From an uncultured Ruminiclostridium sp. (GTDB lineage Bacteria > Bacillota > Clostridia > Oscillospirales > Ruminococcaceae), in NCBI GenBank assembly GCA_947630685.1, contig CANRII010000006.1, positions 1 to 48,258 of the forward strand: 48,258 nucleotides of DNA. The letters run 5' to 3'. Both the position numbers and the translations under genes were made by a program. The notes below the pieces were generated by a model. That model worked only from the letters and a program-made list of their open reading frames with translations. It was not told where the DNA came from and ran no database searches. Shown here piece after piece: positions 31,609 to 45,836 of the stretch; positions within the stretch are counted from its first letter, which is position 1; every line of letters begins with the position of its first letter.

Positions 31609-32649
31609 TTACCTGATAACGTCGCCGCGCGAGGTGACCGCTTTATACCCGGCGGAAATTATCCTTTGTTCAAGGCAGCTGCGGCATTGGGCGGCTTCCT
31701 CTCCGGTGCAGAGCTTGTTTTCATACAGCTTGTAAAGCTCCCTTACTCCCACGGGAGAAAGGTTCGGCATCACGACGTTCGCGCCGGCTTTCAGTCCTCT
31801 TTCCCTGCCCTGCGGGTGGATAGAGCCCAGCGCGGTGGTAGCGGGTATCAACGCATACGGGAACATCAGCCTTAATATCGCCACCAGCCTCAGCGTCAGC
31901 TCCAAGCTGCCGTTTTCCTTATCACGAAAAGGGGTGTCCTTATGCTTAATATACGGTCCTATGCCTATCATGTCCGGCGACAGCTGCTGTAAAAATCGCA
32001 GATCGCTGATAAGGTTTTCCGTAGTCTGATACGGAGAACCCACCATGAAGCCCGAGCCTACCTGATAGCCGATAGCTTTTAAGTCAAACAAACAGCGCTT
32101 GCGATCATCAAGGCTCATCTGCAAAGGGTGCAGCTTTGCGTAATGCTCGTCCGACGCGGTTTCGTGCCGCAGAAGATAACGGTCAGCGCCCGCGTCAAAA
32201 TACGCCTGATAGCTCTCACGCGGTTTTTCTCCTATAGATAAGGTTATCGCGCAGTCGGGGAATTTTTGCCGAATATTCGCCACAATGCCGCATATACGCT
32301 CGTCGGTGTAATACGGATCCTCCCCTCCCTGCAAAACAAACGTGCGAAAGCCCAGCCGGTAACCCTCCTCGCAGCAGGAGAGTATTTCTTCTTCGCTCAG
32401 GCGGTAGCGCTTAAGCCTGATATTATCCCGGCGTATTCCGCAATAGTAGCAGTTATTTTTGCAATAGTTGGTAAATTCTATCAATCCGCGCAGATATATG
32501 TCGGTTCCGTAATGCTCTTTCCTGACCTTATCTGCAAGAGAGAACAGCAGATCGTCATATATATCCGTTTCGAGTATCTCTTTTAACGCCGCATCGGGAA
32601 TATCCTGCTTACGATACAGCGTATTGATATTCTGTTCTATAGGCTCCAC
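31609..32649 (-). CDS. hydE: [FeFe] hydrogenase H-cluster radical SAM maturase HydE
   Basis: CKNNCYYCGIRRDN (CxxxCxxC), LQGGEDPYYTD, GSGFMVGSPYQTTENL, MPNLSPVGVRELYKLYENK; GTG start preceded by GAGGTGAT. Confidence 0.93.
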   Translation of the reverse strand: MEPIEQNINTLYRKQDIPDAALKEILETDIYDDLLFSLADKVRKEHYGTDIYLRGLIEFTNYCKNNCYYCGIRRDNIRLKRYRLSEEEILSCCEEGYRLGFRTFVLQGGEDPYYTDERICGIVANIRQKFPDCAITLSIGEKPRESYQAYFDAGADRYLLRHETASDEHYAKLHPLQMSLDDRKRCLFDLKAIGYQVGSGFMVGSPYQTTENLISDLRFLQQLSPDMIGIGPYIKHKDTPFRDKENGSLELTLRLVAILRLMFPYALIPATTALGSIHPQGRERGLKAGANVVMPNLSPVGVRELYKLYENKLCTGEEAAQCRSCLEQRIISAGYKAVTSRGDVIR

Positions 32650-32670
32650 ATCATCACCTCGTTTAAGTTA

Positions 32671-32699
32671 ATTATACTAAATTGATAGGTAATTGTCAA
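32671..32699 (-). promoter_or_regulatory. hydE promoter (cassette copy A)
   Basis: Minus strand TTGACA - 17 nt - TATAAT. Confidence 0.8.
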
Positions 32700-32761
32700 G
32701 GGAGGAGAGTGTTTGCGGGGATGATGAAGTTTATATAAATCATGAAAATCACAAAAAAACA

Positions 32762-32791
32762 TTGACAAATAAAAGCGTATCGTGCTATAAT
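32762..32791 (+). promoter_or_regulatory. Strong sigma70-type promoter of the leader RNA / surface protein gene
   Basis: TTGACA - 18 nt - TATAAT; predicted start near 32798. Confidence 0.8.
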
Positions 32792-32796
32792 ATGGG

Positions 32797-32907
32797 TGCG
32801 ACACAACTGAATATTTCCTAAATGACGAGGTATAATACTTTTACTACAGGTAAAAGTGCATGCTCTTTTTTCGTATACCTTTTCATTTGGGAACGAGTTG
32901 TGTCGCA
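32797..32907 (+). ncRNA. Candidate structured leader RNA (unassigned class)
   Basis: Nested helices: P1 32797-32808/32896-32907 (TGCGACACAACT/AGTTGTGTCGCA, 12 bp), P2 32817-32825/32883-32891 (9 bp, one G-U), P3 32829-32834/32874-32879 (6 bp), P4 32837-32844/32850-32857 (8 bp). Confidence 0.65.
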
Positions 32908-32931
32908 GCAATCGGAGCTTTGCATTTTTCG

Positions 32932-32958
32932 GTGCGTAGCTTCGGCTGCGCACTTTTT
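32932..32958 (+). terminator. Intrinsic terminator inside the 5' leader
   Basis: GTGCGTAGC-TTCG-GCTGCGCAC (9 bp with one G-U) followed by TTTTT, upstream of the 33019 start codon. Confidence 0.8.
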
Positions 32959-33018
32959 AATTTTGCGGAAAAGTGCGCTGACAATACACAACCGCAAAAA
33001 GAAATCGGAGGAAACACC

Positions 33019-34020
33019 ATGATACTAAAAAAGACTGCTGCGGCTATTCTGGCGGCGGCAACGGCAATGGCGAGCGTATGTGTATGCGCTTACGCACAGG
33101 ACGATACGGCAGGAGGCGCTCCGTTTAAGTTTACATACGAAAACGTCAAGAGCGCAGACGGCTATGACGACGAGGCTATGGCGATCGTAAAACACTTTAA
33201 CGGCGACGCTTCGCAAGCCGAGGGCGCGATCGACGGCATTCTCGCGGGCAACAGCATCATCACGGCGGATTTCGGTGATAAAGGCATAGATGAAAACGCG
33301 ATACCTGTTTTCAAATTTTATAACCTTTCCGAAGACGGCACAAAAATTGAAGAAAAGTATTCGTTCAACACACATAAGCATCCTGCAACCGAGGATTATG
33401 CTTGGGAATTAGACGGAGTACGCGTCTTTTCTGACGGAATAAAAGGAAAGCCTATTGCTGCCGACGGACAGATCGACGGTATAGACTATAATACCGGCGG
33501 ATGTATTGTAGGTCAAACGACTGTACTCGGCAACAAGATAAGCGGTAACCTCATAAAGAAATTATATGAAGAAAATGTTGCAGGCGCGATCGGTATGGGA
33601 TCGGATTTTTACAGCGATGAAGAGCTTGAGGAGCTTAAAAATCTTCCGAGCTTTGACGAATATGATATGATAGAGGTCGGAATAAATATTGACGGCATGG
33701 TCTACTCAGCATTTTTCCTGAACGCAAGCTACACAGGCGATACCGAAACCCCCGAAACTTCCGAAACCCCCGAAACCTCGGAAACTCCTGAAACTTCTGA
33801 AACTCCCGAAGCTTCCGAGACTCCCGAAACCTCGGAGACTCCCGAAACTTCCGAAGCTCCTGAAACCTCGGAGACTCCCGAAGCTTCCGAAGCTCCCGAA
33901 ACCTCGGATACCTCTGATAAGGACAATCCCGCTATGGGAGCGGCTGCTATTGTTCCGGCAGTCGGAGTTGCATTCCTCGCCGGAGCTGCTGCTATAATCG
34001 CTTATAAAAAGAGAAAGTAA
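33019..34020 (+). CDS. Secreted surface protein with (E[T/A]PE[T/A]S)n stalk and C-terminal membrane anchor
   Basis: Start 33019 supported by GGAGG 7 nt upstream; signal peptide; nine hexapeptide repeats; C-terminal NPAMG + TM + KKRK. The ORF-track start at 32860 lies inside the leader RNA. Confidence 0.8.
   Translation: MILKKTAAAILAAATAMASVCVCAYAQDDTAGGAPFKFTYENVKSADGYDDEAMAIVKHFNGDASQAEGAIDGILAGNSIITADFGDKGIDENAIPVFKFYNLSEDGTKIEEKYSFNTHKHPATEDYAWELDGVRVFSDGIKGKPIAADGQIDGIDYNTGGCIVGQTTVLGNKISGNLIKKLYEENVAGAIGMGSDFYSDEELEELKNLPSFDEYDMIEVGINIDGMVYSAFFLNASYTGDTETPETSETPETSETPETSETPEASETPETSETPETSEAPETSETPEASEAPETSDTSDKDNPAMGAAAIVPAVGVAFLAGAAAIIAYKKRK
33745..33906 (+). repeat. Nine tandem 18-bp units encoding ETPETS-type hexapeptides
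   Basis: Direct reading: gaaacccccgaaacttcc and variants, 9 x 18 = 162 bp, in frame. Confidence 0.9.
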
Positions 34021-35764: not shown

Positions 35765-36154
35765 TTATCCGCCTATTTGAATACCCGTTTCAACTCTTGT
35801 AATTATCCCGTCGCTGTCATAGTACATATAGTAATAATAATCGTTTGTATCAAAATTATAAAGATAATAAGCGGCTATTCTCCCGGTGTCGATATCATAT
35901 TTTCCGTATCTTGCTTCAACATTTGAAATGTTATTTCCGACTATCCACCAATCATTATACCTTAATGATGTATGATGACTGGCATAAAACAAGATGACCG
36001 ATACTATAAACAATATTATTATAGCTACCGTAACTGTCCGTGATATTATTTTGATACGGTTCTCTCTTTTGTTCTTTAGTATCTCTTTCGGCGCCGCGTC
36101 GGGAATATCCCGCTTTTGATACAGCGTGTTGATATTCTGTTCTATAGGCTCCAC
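35765..36154 (-). CDS. Chimeric small membrane protein: HydE-derived N-terminus + TM + short extracytoplasmic domain
   Basis: MEPIEQNINTLYQKRDIPDAAPKEIL matches HydE MEPIEQNINTLYRKQDIPDAALKEIL; then KNKRENRIKIISRTVTVAIIILFIVSVILFYAS...; GTG start. Confidence 0.75.
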   Translation of the reverse strand: MEPIEQNINTLYQKRDIPDAAPKEILKNKRENRIKIISRTVTVAIIILFIVSVILFYASHHTSLRYNDWWIVGNNISNVEARYGKYDIDTGRIAAYYLYNFDTNDYYYYMYYDSDGIITRVETGIQIGG

Positions 36155-36157
36155 ATC

Positions 36158-36218
36158 ATCACCCCCCGTTTAAGTTAATTGTACTAAAATAACAGGTGAT
36201 TGTCAAGAAAGGAGGCTC
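36158..36218 (-). repeat. Promoter cassette copy C (61 bp)
   Basis: 60/61 identical to copy B; TTGACA - 17 - TACAAT (36178-36206). Confidence 0.9.
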
Positions 36219-37424: not shown

Positions 37425-38084
37425 TTAAGCGTTTTTAATTATCTGTCCGTCCGCTATCTCGATAACCCTCCCGCATTGTGCGGCGATGTCCGCGTCGTGA
37501 GTGACTATAATAACGGTCTTGCCGTATTCGCGGTTAAGCTCGGTCAAAAGCCGCATGACCTCCTCGCCGGACTTTGCGTCAAGGTTGCCGGTAGGCTCGT
37601 CGCAAAGCAGCACGTCGGGGTCGTTTATCAGCGCCCTTGCTATCGCCGCGCGTTGCTGCTGTCCGCCGGAAAGCTCGGACGGGTAATGCCGCAATCTATC
37701 CGATATGCCGAGCCTGTCGGTTATCTCTGTAAGCCGCTCCGCTTTCTTTTTAGCGAGCTTTGCGGGCAAAAGGATATTTTCCTCGGCGGTAAGCTCCGGC
37801 AAAAGGTCAAAGAACTGAAACACAAAGCCGATATTGTTAAGCCGAAAATCCGCAAGCGGGCTGTCTTTGAGCTTAGTTATATCGGTATCGCCGTACATAA
37901 TACTTCCGCTGTCCGCCTCGTCCAGCCCTCCGAGCAGATTAAGCAAGGTAGTTTTACCGCTGCCGCTTTTGCCGATAAGTGCGGTAAGCTCGCCGTCGTT
38001 TACGGAAAGATTTATATTTTTAAGCGCTTTGACGCTGCCGTCGCCCTTGCCATAGGTCTTGTTAAGGTCTGTAGCTTTGATCAT
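37425..38084 (-). CDS. ABC transporter ATP-binding protein (LolD/MacB-type)
   Basis: [46 protein letters not shown]. Confidence 0.95.
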
Positions 38085-40768
38085 TGTCTTTCCCTCCCTG
38101 AGTTTATATCCTCGGCTATGTTCTTCCTAAATTTTCTAAGAGCAAGCACGGTCAGAAGTATCGTTACCGCGCACATTATACCGACTATGATAAGCGTTAT
38201 CCGTTCGGCGGGTACTACCCACATAACTCGGTCAAGAAAATATCGGTCGCTTATCTCTGTAAGCTGCGAGCGCAGCGATTCTTTCAAAGCTCTGTCGGTG
38301 GAGGGGTCGTTCAGCATATCAAAAGTCTGCGAATGGAGATAATACCCGTGCGCCATCAGCATTTGCAGACCCTTTACCGATATGACGGAAAGCGCGCCCG
38401 CTATTATCGGCAGCTTGATATTATCTATAAGCAGTCTCAGCCTAAGCCTTGATATCGGCGCACCTACCGCCCTTAATACCGATATTTCATAAGCGCGCTG
38501 ACGTATCTTTACCCCTATTCCGTTAAAGTACGCCGCAAAGCCGAGCAGGGACATAATAATTATGATAAGCGCCATTCCTCCGTATTTTGCGGCGGCGGAC
38601 GCGATCATCGCCGTGTGTATCTGAGCAAGTCCGGTTTTGGTAAAGCCCGCGCCGGTTAGCGGCCCCGCGTCTATTCCGTCCTTGGCGATAATATTAGTAT
38701 AAGCCGCGTTGTGCAGCCCGATCGCCTTTGCGCCTGATACGGTGGTAAGCAGCCCGTAAGAGACCTCCGACTGATAATTTTTCACGCAGTTAAAGGTGAC
38801 GTTATCCATGTTCTCGGTGCTTATCACCGCGCCTATCTTCACTTTGCCCGAATTTATCTCTCCGATGCCGCCATAATCGTTTGCTTTTGCGGAGCAAAGC
38901 GTTATCTCGTCGCCCTGCGAAAGATGACCGCTGCCGCTGCATACGAAGATAACTTCTTCCCCGTTCGATATTTTTTCGGGGTCGATGCTGCCGCTTATGA
39001 CATACTTATCCAGGCTGTCTATTACCGAGCTGTCGGCAAGGCTGACCTCTATTTTATCAAGCGTCAGAGCGCCAAGCTCTCCGTCGTCGAAAATATCGGC
39101 ATATTTCTCATCGGACACGCTGATAAGATAATCCTTTTCCTCTTGCGTTCCGAAAAATATCCTGTCGGGATAGCCCTCTTTTCCTATCATAAACGTATTA
39201 GTAAGTACGCCGAACGCCTGCGCTCCCTTAAGCTCATCCGCGACCGCGTCGTCTATGCCGTACTCGGTATCCGCGCCCGCCATGGGAAATTCCCCGATAT
39301 AGACGGTAGGAGAGCCGGGCGCGCTGTAGTATTCGCTTATGCCGTCAAGCTCAAGATCTATGCCTCCCACCTCGGTGGAAAATTCGTAGCTTTGCGGGGT
39401 GTAATTCAAGGTTTGTATGATATTTTCATGATAGAAGCTTTCCTTTTCGGGAGTATCGGCAAAATACATATATCCCAAAGCCGTACCGCAGCAGATAAGC
39501 ACCAGCGCGGCGGTCTGTACGACGGTTATATATCTTTGTCGAAATACCCGCCCTATGCTGACAAAAAGGCTTGCGGGCTTTTTACCGCGCTTTTTTGTAA
39601 GCGGGCGCAGCTTAGACGCAAGCGCTCCCGCTAAAAACGCCGTAACGGTCATTATTACCGAGAAAGCGGCGGAAATGATAAACGGATCGAGGGTATAATT
39701 CGTTACCCACTTATCCGCCGTAAATCCCGAATAGGGCGGCATACCCATAAGCTCTGTCTGAAATATGTAGATCGCCATATAGACGAGCGACCCCGCGCCG
39801 CAGCCGATAACAAGCTGTACCAGCACGGCAAACAGCCCCTCGGTACAATACATGGCGGCGAGCCTTTTGCGGGAAAGCCCTATTCTCAGCAAAAGCCGAT
39901 CATGGTTCTTTCTCTGTGCGATTACCGAGCGCAGCACCGAAAATACCGACAGCGCCGCTATCACCATACATACTATCGACAGGCAGAGCAGAAACGCCGT
40001 GTCCTGCGTCGCATACTTCTTTAGCAGCTCGGAGGTTGAATATAAATCGTCTATACTTACAGAACTATACCCGTATTTTTGCAATATCTCGTCATATTTA
40101 ATATACAGATCGTCCTCGCCGTACAAATTGCCCTCGGCTATCCCGCTCAGCATGGTATATTCGTACAGCACATTTGCATTTTCGGGCTTGCCGACAAATA
40201 TCGACGGTAGGGGCTGTTCGGGCGGGTCGGTCATTCCTTTTCTTGTTGTTGAGGAAATTTCCGACAACGGGCGGTACAGTCCGTAGATCTCGTCTATTAT
40301 GCCGCTTACCGTATAGGAAACGCCGTCAAGCGTCAGGGTATCGCCCACATCGCCTACCCAGCCGAATCTGTCCAGAACATAACGGTCGGCGGCTATCTCG
40401 TTTTCCGACTGCGGAAGCCTGCCGCTTTCCATCGGGATATGACACAGTCCGGCGGGGTCGTCGAGATAGCCGCAGGTGAATTTTTCCGCGCCTGTCCCTG
40501 TTTTACCGAGAATGTTTATATGTCCCTCGCTGTACTCCCTGCCGCCCGAAATTTCGGTCAGAAATTCCTGCGACGGCGAGGTCACGATAAGCTCGTACAT
40601 TCCGTCATAGTCATAATCCGAATGAAGCTGCCGCGCAAAGCTTGAACGCAGCATAAGCAGCGACACGGTGACGACCATATTCATAAGTATCCCCGCAAAC
40701 AGCAGAGCGAATGCGGTTTTAAGGTGCTTGCGCCAGTATTTTAGAGATATGTAAAATAACGTTTTCAT
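38081..40768 (-). CDS. ABC transporter permease, FtsX/MacB-type
   Basis: 895 aa; N-terminal TM and large extracytoplasmic domain; two FtsX-like TM blocks; RAYEISVLRAVGAPISRLRLRLLIDN. Confidence 0.9.
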   Translation of the reverse strand: MKTLFYISLKYWRKHLKTAFALLFAGILMNMVVTVSLLMLRSSFARQLHSDYDYDGMYELIVTSPSQEFLTEISGGREYSEGHINILGKTGTGAEKFTCGYLDDPAGLCHIPMESGRLPQSENEIAADRYVLDRFGWVGDVGDTLTLDGVSYTVSGIIDEIYGLYRPLSEISSTTRKGMTDPPEQPLPSIFVGKPENANVLYEYTMLSGIAEGNLYGEDDLYIKYDEILQKYGYSSVSIDDLYSTSELLKKYATQDTAFLLCLSIVCMVIAALSVFSVLRSVIAQRKNHDRLLLRIGLSRKRLAAMYCTEGLFAVLVQLVIGCGAGSLVYMAIYIFQTELMGMPPYSGFTADKWVTNYTLDPFIISAAFSVIMTVTAFLAGALASKLRPLTKKRGKKPASLFVSIGRVFRQRYITVVQTAALVLICCGTALGYMYFADTPEKESFYHENIIQTLNYTPQSYEFSTEVGGIDLELDGISEYYSAPGSPTVYIGEFPMAGADTEYGIDDAVADELKGAQAFGVLTNTFMIGKEGYPDRIFFGTQEEKDYLISVSDEKYADIFDDGELGALTLDKIEVSLADSSVIDSLDKYVISGSIDPEKISNGEEVIFVCSGSGHLSQGDEITLCSAKANDYGGIGEINSGKVKIGAVISTENMDNVTFNCVKNYQSEVSYGLLTTVSGAKAIGLHNAAYTNIIAKDGIDAGPLTGAGFTKTGLAQIHTAMIASAAAKYGGMALIIIIMSLLGFAAYFNGIGVKIRQRAYEISVLRAVGAPISRLRLRLLIDNIKLPIIAGALSVISVKGLQMLMAHGYYLHSQTFDMLNDPSTDRALKESLRSQLTEISDRYFLDRVMWVVPAERITLIIVGIMCAVTILLTVLALRKFRKNIAEDINSGRERQ

Positions 40769-42226: not shown

Positions 42227-44653
42227 TTATTCCACGCCCTTTAAGCTTTCCACAACGGACGTTTTGAAGCTCTTAAAGGACGCATACAGGGATATCAATA
42301 TCACAAGGGCGAAATATACCGGCGCATAGACAGCTATTTCCCACATCGAAAACATCGCTGCCGAATACCCTGACAACAGCGAAACGGCAAGGCACAGCCC
42401 GCCGCCGAGAAGAAGTCCGAGTAAAAAGGCGGCGGCAAGGTAAACAAGATTTTCGGTAAGCAGCAGCTTAAAAAGCTGAGCTCGGGTCATTCCCGCCGCA
42501 CGTAAAGCGCCGAATATTCTGCGCCGCCTTGATATTTTTGCCGACAGCGAGCTTATCAGGCTTATCACCGAGAAAACTCCTAATGTAACGCACACTGTTT
42601 TGGATATCGCCAAAAACGCATTATATACCTGCTGCGCCGATTCGGACTGCTGAATGTTATCCGTCACCCATAACGATAAGCCGCCGGATTTATAATACTG
42701 CTCTATATCGTTTATCACCTCTGCAAGCTTAGCAAAATACTGCTTATCCTTGACTGTAAGGGCAACACGGTTATATCCGGCGTTGATATTAAGGGCGTCA
42801 TAAGCGTCTATCGACCATATATTTCCTCTGCTAAGCTCTTTTATCAAGGAAGCGTTTTCTGCAAGCTTTATATCCGCCACTGCGCAGACAGTCACCTCGA
42901 AGTCCAGCATACGCGGCTTTTCTTCGTCGTTGTCGGAGAATAAAACCGCGTATCTTATCCTGTCGCCAACATTATCGTTTTTATCGGTGGAGATCACCTG
43001 CGTTCCGTCTTTGAGCGCGGATATATTTATTTTTCCCTTGATTACATATTCGTTCAAAGTCTCCAGCGTTTCGTCGGATACGCCGCTTATAACCGTTTCT
43101 TTAAGCCTATATCCGTCCGGATAGCCCATATCTTTCGCCGTTTGCATAAGGCTTTCGTCTTGGTTTTCCGTGCCGCTGTAAATGGTTTCATCGACCAGTT
43201 CATATGGTTCAAAGCAAGCCATGCCGATTATCTGCTTTGTGTCTGGATTATCGTATAAAGCCGCATAATCAGTCTTTGTTATGCCCTTTACCGAATCCGA
43301 GGATACCTCGCCCGGCATTTTTGTGTATGCGGTATCAATATGAAAATCATACGGACGTGTAAGGCTGCTGATATCCTTAAGTAGCGCCACGCCGATAAAG
43401 GAACAGAAAACCATTATCACTACCGAAATAAACACCGTAATGCAGGCTGCGGTGATCTCTCCGGCGTTTTGCAAAAAGCTCTTTACCGCATATAAAACGT
43501 ATGGATTTTGAGAGGTGAAATTTGTGCCGCTTTCGGTAACGCTCGCCTTCGGCTTAAGATTTTCTATCACCGGCTTATTTACCGAACTTACAATGCTTAA
43601 ATACGAGAACAGCACCGCAAGCAGAAATATCCCTGCCACACCTAAAATGCACACAAGCCCCGCCTGCGCCGCGTTTTGGTTCGCGCCGAATATATCGCTT
43701 ATCCAAAATGAGGAAACAAACGCCGCCGCACCCGCAAGTATCGCACAGGGAGCGGCGAGCATAGCCGTTCGTAAAATAAATACCAGCGATATCGTCTTGA
43801 CCGAAAATCCGGCGGTTTTGAGCATGCCCGCCTGCATGATGTTCCCACGCGAGGATATCATGGTTATCGAAAGAAGTATTAACGCCGTAACAATAAGCAT
43901 AAGCAGGATAATAAAAAATACCGCGCCGCTGTCGGATATCCCGGTAATTACCATTATATCGCTGTTGCGCTGATTTGGAGTATATGCTATGGCGCTGCCG
44001 TTTTCTACAAGCTGTTTTGAAATCGTATCAACGTCCGTTCCGTCTGTAAATTTCACGCTTACAAAGCTGTACGGCACGGCATATGAAAAGTCCTCGCTCA
44101 CCAGCGCATTTATCATCGGGACCGAGCGGTCGTTCCACTGCATATTGGATATATTGTTGATAACGCCGCAGATTTTCATTGAGCGTTCTTCACCGTCGGA
44201 AAGCGTAAAAGTTATTTCATCGCTGACAGCCGATCTCGGGTATACCAAACTGAGAAAAGAACGCTCAAGCGCGATCTCATTGCTGTTTTGCGGAAAATTA
44301 CCCTCCAGTAATGTTATGCAATTAAGCGCTATGGCGTTTTCATCGGCGTGACCCATTACTATCGGTCGGTCGGAATAGTCCTCGTTTCTTATTGCCGAGC
44401 CTGTTACATAAATCGTACCGCGTTTAGTTATATCTAAAGAGGAAAACTCATCGGCATTTTTCACGGCAAAAACAGCGTCATGCACGCCGTAGGTCATATC
44501 CATGCGCTTTTCGTTTCCGGCATTCCAGCTAAACAGGAAAAGCGCCTGCAAAACAAAAAACAATGACGCAAAAAAGTAAAACAGCGCGGTTATAATGCTT
44601 TTACGCCTGTTTAATATTATGGTGCGGCTGACATAATGCAGTATATATTTCAT
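42227..44653 (-). CDS. ABC transporter permease, FtsX/MacB-type
   Basis: 808 aa; FtsX-like TM blocks; RRRIFGALRAAGMTRAQLFKLLLTENLVYLAAAFLLGLLLGGGL. Confidence 0.9.
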   Translation of the reverse strand: MKYILHYVSRTIILNRRKSIITALFYFFASLFFVLQALFLFSWNAGNEKRMDMTYGVHDAVFAVKNADEFSSLDITKRGTIYVTGSAIRNEDYSDRPIVMGHADENAIALNCITLLEGNFPQNSNEIALERSFLSLVYPRSAVSDEITFTLSDGEERSMKICGVINNISNMQWNDRSVPMINALVSEDFSYAVPYSFVSVKFTDGTDVDTISKQLVENGSAIAYTPNQRNSDIMVITGISDSGAVFFIILLMLIVTALILLSITMISSRGNIMQAGMLKTAGFSVKTISLVFILRTAMLAAPCAILAGAAAFVSSFWISDIFGANQNAAQAGLVCILGVAGIFLLAVLFSYLSIVSSVNKPVIENLKPKASVTESGTNFTSQNPYVLYAVKSFLQNAGEITAACITVFISVVIMVFCSFIGVALLKDISSLTRPYDFHIDTAYTKMPGEVSSDSVKGITKTDYAALYDNPDTKQIIGMACFEPYELVDETIYSGTENQDESLMQTAKDMGYPDGYRLKETVISGVSDETLETLNEYVIKGKINISALKDGTQVISTDKNDNVGDRIRYAVLFSDNDEEKPRMLDFEVTVCAVADIKLAENASLIKELSRGNIWSIDAYDALNINAGYNRVALTVKDKQYFAKLAEVINDIEQYYKSGGLSLWVTDNIQQSESAQQVYNAFLAISKTVCVTLGVFSVISLISSLSAKISRRRRIFGALRAAGMTRAQLFKLLLTENLVYLAAAFLLGLLLGGGLCLAVSLLSGYSAAMFSMWEIAVYAPVYFALVILISLYASFKSFKTSVVESLKGVE

Positions 44654-45315
44654 TCTGCCACAACCTTTCCGTCGCGCAGAATTACAGTCCTGCCGCCTTT
44701 TGAGGAGAAATCCGCGTCGTGGGTGACGATAACTACTGTTTTATTAAGCTCCTTGTGCAGCTTGAGCAGCAACCGCTGCACAGATTCCGACGACGCAGAA
44801 TCAAGATTTCCCGTAGGTTCGTCACACAAAATAACAGACGGGTCGGTCATAAGCGCTCTGGCGATAGCTACCCTCTGCTGTTGTCCGCCCGAAAGCTGAG
44901 AGGGCAAGTGCTTTAACCGTTCCGAAAGTTCAAGAGCCGTTACAAGATAATCGAACAGCTCTCCGTCGATCTTTTTTCTTCCCAGATATACGGGGTATTT
45001 TATGTTTTCCTCGGCGTTAAGCTCCGGAATAAGATTGTAATCCTGAAATACAAAGCCGATATTATCACGGCGAAATACCGACAATTCGCTCTCTTTTTTA
45101 TCGGTGATGTTTATATCGTTGTAAAAAACCCCGCCGCTGTCGGGTCTATCCAGACCGCCTATAATATGTAACAGCGTTGATTTTCCCGAGCCGCTTTTCC
45201 CGATTATAAAAAGCAGCTCGCCGTCGGGTATCTCAAGATTTATCCCCTCAAGAGCGGCTATAGTGTTGTCCTTGTCAAGCTTATAGCGCTTTGTTATATC
45301 GTTTATCTTTATCAT
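44650..45315 (-). CDS. ABC transporter ATP-binding protein (LolD/MacB-type)
   Basis: [46 protein letters not shown]. Confidence 0.95.
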   Translation of the reverse strand: MIKINDITKRYKLDKDNTIAALEGINLEIPDGELLFIIGKSGSGKSTLLHIIGGLDRPDSGGVFYNDINITDKKESELSVFRRDNIGFVFQDYNLIPELNAEENIKYPVYLGRKKIDGELFDYLVTALELSERLKHLPSQLSGGQQQRVAIARALMTDPSVILCDEPTGNLDSASSESVQRLLLKLHKELNKTVVIVTHDADFSSKGGRTVILRDGKVVAE

Positions 45316-45836
45316 TGCCTGCGCTCCTTATTTTGCATAAGCTTAACGAAAAGTCGGTTTATATAGTAGCCCAACGCACACCCCGCCGCCGAAAAGATGA
45401 TAGCCGCGGTATCGTTTCTGACTCCCATTGATATACCGATAAAGTATAATATCAATATCAACAGTTCAACAGGCAGCACTACACAGACAGTTAAGGTCAC
45501 ATATTTTCCCGTGCTGTTCAGATTAAATAAAACCGGCGCAAAAATACCCCACAGCAAAGCTAAGATAAACGCCGCCGCAAATCCGTTAAAATAATATGAT
45601 TCCGGCAAGCCGGCCATTGCTGCAAACGGGATAGGGTTATATCCTATCCATTCTACATCGTCAAATGAAAATTGTTCGCCTATTCCGATAAAAAGCCGAT
45701 AAAAGAGCGCTGCAACAAGTATCACAGCACAGCCCACCTGTTTTAATTTCAGCTTTCGCGCAAAAGCAAAACCGAGCGCAACACAAATCAGCGCAAAAGC
45801 CAGCATTGTTAAAAATATCGCAGTGTTTAATCTCAT
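45312..45836 (-). CDS. Hypothetical membrane protein, first gene of exporter operon 1
   Basis: Hydrophobic helices; overlaps the ATPase start; RBS AAGGAG. Confidence 0.65.
   Translation of the reverse strand: MRLNTAIFLTMLAFALICVALGFAFARKLKLKQVGCAVILVAALFYRLFIGIGEQFSFDDVEWIGYNPIPFAAMAGLPESYYFNGFAAAFILALLWGIFAPVLFNLNSTGKYVTLTVCVVLPVELLILILYFIGISMGVRNDTAAIIFSAAGCALGYYINRLFVKLMQNKERRQ

Follow-up and report, generated by a model that had tools for sequence, protein, structure and literature searches.

Here we report a structured leader RNA at positions 32797-32958 of the forward strand of a 48,258-nucleotide stretch of DNA (the window) from an uncultured Ruminiclostridium sp., which in our judgement most probably acts in cis as a pseudoknot-gated, riboswitch-like transcription attenuator. 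The position of its promoter, its helices, its pseudoknot (PK), antiterminator (AT) and terminator (T), the mutual exclusion of these folds and the linkage to a downstream gene are all established in silico; no transcript, termination or ligand data are available. Carried by about one in four of the Clostridia genomes sampled and not represented in Rfam 15, the leader would be among the larger regulatory RNA families in the herbivore gut that still await characterisation.

Anatomy of the leader and its exclusive folds

The whole element is longer than first drawn. The preliminary description had placed here a promoter, a 12-bp helix (P1), helices of 9 and 6 bp (P2 and P3) and an apical hairpin (P4), and each of these parts was found where it had been claimed: TTGACA at 32762-32767 and TATAAT at 32786-32791 with a spacer of 18 bp, P1 as TGCGACACAACT (32797-32808) pairing with AGTTGTGTCGCA (32896-32907) at 12 of 12 positions, P2 and P3 within 32815-32834 and 32874-32893, and P4 as ACTTTTAC (32837-32844) pairing with GTAAAAGT (32850-32857). 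As an anatomy it was nevertheless incomplete, leaving out the terminator up to 32958, the two exclusive folds of the 3' part and the pairing of the apical loop with that part. The features are as follows.

32762..32791, + strand: sigma-A promoter, TTGACA-18-TATAAT, seen in the sequence; start predicted at ~32797, the first base of P1
32797..32808, + strand: 5' strand of P1; 98.6% of cells paired in 202 non-redundant homologs
32896..32907, + strand: 3' strand of P1; pairs 4, 11 and 12 each significant singly
32815..32834, + strand: 5' strand of P2/P3 (rod); sequence varies, pairing maintained
32874..32893, + strand: 3' strand of P2/P3 (rod); from the window fold and rod folding in homologs
32837..32857, + strand: apical hairpin P4, ACTTTTAC..GTAAAAGT; 89.6% of cells paired
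32856..32865, + strand: 5' strand of PK, GUGCA-U-GCUC; 9 pairs, 93.4% of cells paired
32915..32925, + strand: 3' strand of PK, GAGC-UU-UGCAU; bases shared with the AT 5' arm
32905..32924, + strand: 5' arm of AT; 88.9% of cells paired
32933..32949, + strand: 3' arm of AT, overlapping the terminator
32932..32958, + strand: intrinsic terminator (T), hairpin GUGCGUAGC/GCUGCGCAC plus U5; 99.4% of cells paired
33007..33011, + strand: Shine-Dalgarno (SD) sequence GGAGG of the controlled gene, seen in the sequence
33019..34020, + strand: controlled gene, putative secreted surface protein with PETSET repeats and a C-terminal anchor-like segment

Directly 3' of the second P1 strand lies GCAGCAAUCGGAGCUUUGCAUUUUUCGGUGCGUAGCUUCGGCUGCGCACUUUUU, and the ATG of the secreted-protein gene is 60 nt 3' of the U-tract. 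The window RNA folds with -68.6 kcal/mol against -35.9 +/- 3.6 kcal/mol for 200 dinucleotide shuffles (z = -9.07), a stability far beyond chance. A perfect 10-bp inverted repeat at 32948-32978 matches GCGCACTTTT, the 3' arm and U-tract of the terminator, with AAAAGTGCGC downstream; this pairing could form only in read-through RNA.

Common to the homologs are the promoter, P1, the rod with an apical GGUAAAAnUGCAUnCUC and, on the 3' side, the linker and a terminator that ends in a U-tract; the flanks are not conserved. A -10 box with at most one mismatch is present in 239 of 276 homologs, exactly 5 nt upstream of the element in 223 and behind a 17 bp spacer in 210, and the consensus promoter has an extended -10 (TGTGnTATAAT). 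The rod interior is variable in sequence, with a median fold z-score of -5.2 (59 homologs), and few unpaired bases are conserved outside the strongly conserved apical GGUAAAAnUGCAUnCUC. The apical UGCAU.GCUC is complementary to GAGC..UGCA in the linker, a match spotted by eye and then counted, with ACGCAUACUC/GAGUUAUGCGU (locus L087) and CGCAACUU/GAGUUGCG (locus L075) as examples. The linker bases of this pseudoknot are also the 5' arm of AT, the 3' arm of which falls within T.

An R-scape-like test of single pairs (89 sequences) was significant only for the three P1 pairs listed above, and a helix-level test was therefore used on 202 sequences, all below 90% identity to one another, with a tree-based null (200 alignments in which the substitutions of each column were re-dealt on the tree) and a second control in which helices were compared with every slid placement. 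The net covariation scores of P1, P4, PK, AT and T each exceeded the null (0/200) and every slid placement, and the pair G32858-C32923 of PK, for example, is GC in 148, AU in 29 and GU in 14 sequences. The covariation proposed earlier as a check is thus significant in P1 and P4, and also in PK and the terminator. Since the covariance model used for the alignment contained neither PK nor AT, the alignment did not favour these two helices; their significance holds at the helix level only, not per pair, and the outer 5-bp segment of AT (ATa) alone did not rise above the tree null. With their pairs enforced, AT and T are near iso-energetic, as expected of a switch: the energy difference has a median of -0.5 kcal/mol (177 homologs). 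PK and AT, and likewise AT and T, share bases while each covaries, as a mutually exclusive platform demands.

In one homolog (L066, 1501-1620) the apical hairpin and PK strand are lost while P1, promoter, AT and terminator are kept, a natural deletion mutant.

Distribution and relation to described RNA classes

The element had been described as matching no known class, and this holds: cmscan against Rfam 15 gave no match in the window that reached a gathering threshold, with only chance-level matches at E<=5, and no Rfam match at the element positions of 20 homolog loci at E<=0.1, where the matches were tRNAs, a single Gut-1 RNA nearby and others below threshold. The best Rfam match was SR6 antitoxin RNA (RF02892), at chance level (21 bits, with the gathering score at 55; E 0.29) and resting on a shared terminator hairpin. 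No description of the element was found in the open-access literature, subscription papers and preprints being outside the scope of the search.

Within the genus, BLAST found homologs in 28 of 60 genomes, and the window's own genome carries a single copy. A covariance model (A1, R1) built from 20 BLAST homologs and containing only P1, P4 and the terminator scored matches with E<=0.001 in genomes of the genus (35/71), family (27/249), order (98/295) and class (95/391), spanning ~40 families in all. These E-values are rough owing to a short calibration, and the best scores in other families were 125-140 bits; a weak match in L029 is a fragment and was left out. When a larger number of candidates was scored, sixteen selected carrier genomes proved to contain 7-25 copies each. 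In an exact-pattern scan all named records among the matches listed are metagenome-assembled genomes (MAGs), almost without exception from Clostridia of the gut or rumen, including Oscillospiraceae, Ruminococcus, Ruminiclostridium, Monoglobus and others; we infer that this pattern of occurrence may be the reason for the absence from Rfam.

Some observations concern the genomic surroundings of the copies. One copy with 80% identity lies at 2061-2235 of MT835845.1 (L335), an unannotated human-faecal 'Bacteriophage sp.' record. A phage or plasmid origin was rejected, with two such unannotated faecal records, no plasmid and no IMG/VR pattern match. Gut-1 RNA (RF01706, function unknown) stands at L100 1905-1976 (- strand), just upstream of an element copy on the same strand. 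Seven of 20 loci (L093, L096, L097, L098, L085, L088 and L057) have tRNA genes at most 1.5 kb from the element, but linkage to tRNA islands was discarded when this enrichment shrank to ~9/113 in a wider set.

Close in kind are the transcription-attenuating riboswitches with pseudoknotted aptamers, such as c-di-GMP-II (RF01786). Like the element, these are 5' leaders that combine a compact rod and pseudoknot with a T/AT switch and occur in several and tandem copies per genome before surface-protein genes; however, the element matches none in sequence or by covariance model, its helices are others, and c-di-GMP is excluded as its general ligand. The c-di-GMP-I (GEMM) riboswitch, RF01051, likewise has a broad and diverse regulon that includes exported proteins, but it differs in structure, is present in only 1/71 genomes of the genus, and many element carriers have no GGDEF protein. 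Neither family gave a match in the window or the 20 homolog loci. 6S RNA (RF00013) also has a long rod with an internal loop and its own promoter; unlike it, the element includes PK, AT and a terminator and is followed by genes. Identity with 6S RNA was rejected, there being no RF00013 match and the genome's 6S sitting elsewhere (C90).

Downstream genes and the proposed attenuation mechanism

The next feature after 281 copies is an SD sequence and open reading frame (ORF) in 236 cases, another copy in 20, the contig end in 3 and no recognised ORF in 22, so that the element holds the 5'-leader position expected of riboswitches. The median distance from RNA to ORF is 24 nt, and in 167 of the 236 the ORF begins no more than 40 nt past the terminator, which leaves no room for a separate promoter. 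A terminator hairpin with conserved U-tract thus lies between promoter and gene, as in attenuators of the intrinsic-terminator type. The downstream genes fall into 118 unrelated clusters, and conservation therefore tracks the RNA and not the gene; their domains include LRR_5, Big_2, SLH, CHAP, CAP, zinc-ribbon, AMP-binding and HTH_3 besides many unknowns, and no metabolic pathway is indicated. The gene in the window had been called a secreted surface protein; its product has a signal peptide and PETSET repeats and matches no Pfam family. The linkage to secreted products extends to the whole element family: 58% of the downstream products look exported, 16% having a lipobox, whereas among the remaining ORFs of these loci the figure is 14% (odds ratio 8.6, p = 6e-35). 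The export call is a crude N-terminal test, and the control ORFs may include some spurious ones. As the regulon consists mostly of exported proteins and lipoproteins, the element may be a main control of surface change in these bacteria.

We propose that a constitutive-looking sigma-A promoter would start the RNA at P1 and that the rod, P1 to P4, would fold first, exposing the apical strand UGCAU.GCUC. Once transcribed, the linker GAGC..UGCA could pair with one of two partners, this strand (PK) or the terminator's 5' half (AT). Formation of PK would block AT, allowing T to fold and transcription to end before the gene (OFF); without PK, AT would fold and RNA polymerase would enter the gene (ON). 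A signal acting on the rod and apical domain, most likely a ligand or protein, would bias PK, and a run of U that follows the 3' strand of PK is inferred to be a possible pause site. The direction of control is itself inferred, as is the existence of a trans signal, whose identity is unknown. The label riboswitch is not warranted before ligand binding is shown, and the element cannot be filed under any described class that can be tested. That it represents a new riboswitch class, very abundant in uncultured gut Clostridia, which reads a ligand not yet known to be read by RNA and switches the exported and surface proteome globally, is a tentative reading whose chances we put slightly below even.

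The preliminary description had left open whether the RNA is a new cis-acting regulator or a stand-alone sRNA of ~160 nt. Cis-regulation is supported by the conserved T and AT, the abutting promoter and the SD and ORF that follow most copies, and a stand-alone RNA, trans-acting or a decoy and placed before genes by chance, is unlikely. Such an RNA would account for the element's own promoter and terminator, for multi-copy arrays without genes and with divergent rods (L332, L182, L262, L320) and for the copies followed by no ORF (22) or by another copy (20); indeed the ~15% of copies with another copy or no obvious ORF behind them, and the arrays with no gene between copies (L332, L182, L262), speak against an attenuator. 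It would not explain why 236/281 copies are followed so closely by an SD and ORF, too near for another promoter, nor the strong bias to exported genes, and a conserved antiterminator would serve it no purpose. Many copies per genome, unrelated genes behind them and unconserved flanks would also suit a MITE-like mobile hairpin that carries a promoter and has no regulatory function, but the rods diverge in sequence yet stay paired, PK, AT and T covary, the borders are promoter and terminator and not an insertion site, and the window's genome has one copy only, making this very improbable. Even less can be said for ribosome-mediated attenuation by a leader peptide from the PK AUG: an ORF that starts at 32860 of the window does continue in frame into the gene, but the frame from PK to terminator is near random (85/61/51 in 197 homologs) and often closed by a stop, and this control was ruled out for want of a conserved reading frame.

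As to the input of the proposed attenuator, a third class of c-di-GMP riboswitch was tested because genus carriers have twice the GGDEF genes (20.2 proteins against 9.1; partial rho given size 0.54) without known c-di-GMP riboswitches, those of classes I and II exceeding the cut-off in 1/71 and 0/71 genomes of the genus; the surface-protein regulon and tandem copies also resemble that class. We now give the idea almost no credence. Element-rich genomes of the class sample, namely G850 (25 copies), G830 (14), G782, G742, G797 and G813, have no GGDEF match, G602, G659 and G663 are also listed with zero, and such GGDEF-free carriers rule out c-di-GMP as general ligand; the within-genus correlation therefore probably reflects lineage or size. 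An RNA-binding protein in place of a small molecule, with the attenuation mechanism unchanged, is a somewhat doubtful but serious possibility: it fits the very diverse regulon and an apical GGUAAAAnUGCAUnCUC that is strongly conserved where few other unpaired bases are, but no candidate was identified, co-occurrence of cognate genes not having been sought.

Tandem copies and neighbouring features of the window

Arrays of three or four copies occur at L332 154-1073, L182 887-1667, L262 1309-1889 and L320 1252-1810, each copy having its own promoter and terminator, without intervening genes, and that of L182 mixes different subtypes. The arrays of L272 and L096 arose via duplication of the leader and the start of its gene; the gene-less arrays of L332, L182 and L262 are only partly accounted for and not fully explained.

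The window itself contains a 137 bp duplication (36077-36214 against 32573-32707, 87%) of the 5' end and promoter region of a BATS-domain radical-SAM gene (31609-32649), the product of which is HydE-like by sequence. The copied segment fronts the ORF 35765-36154, and the different small protein there begins with the first ~26 residues of the radical-SAM gene product. Further downstream, ABC transporter sets with FtsX-like permeases lie on the minus strand at 37425-40768 and 42227-45836.
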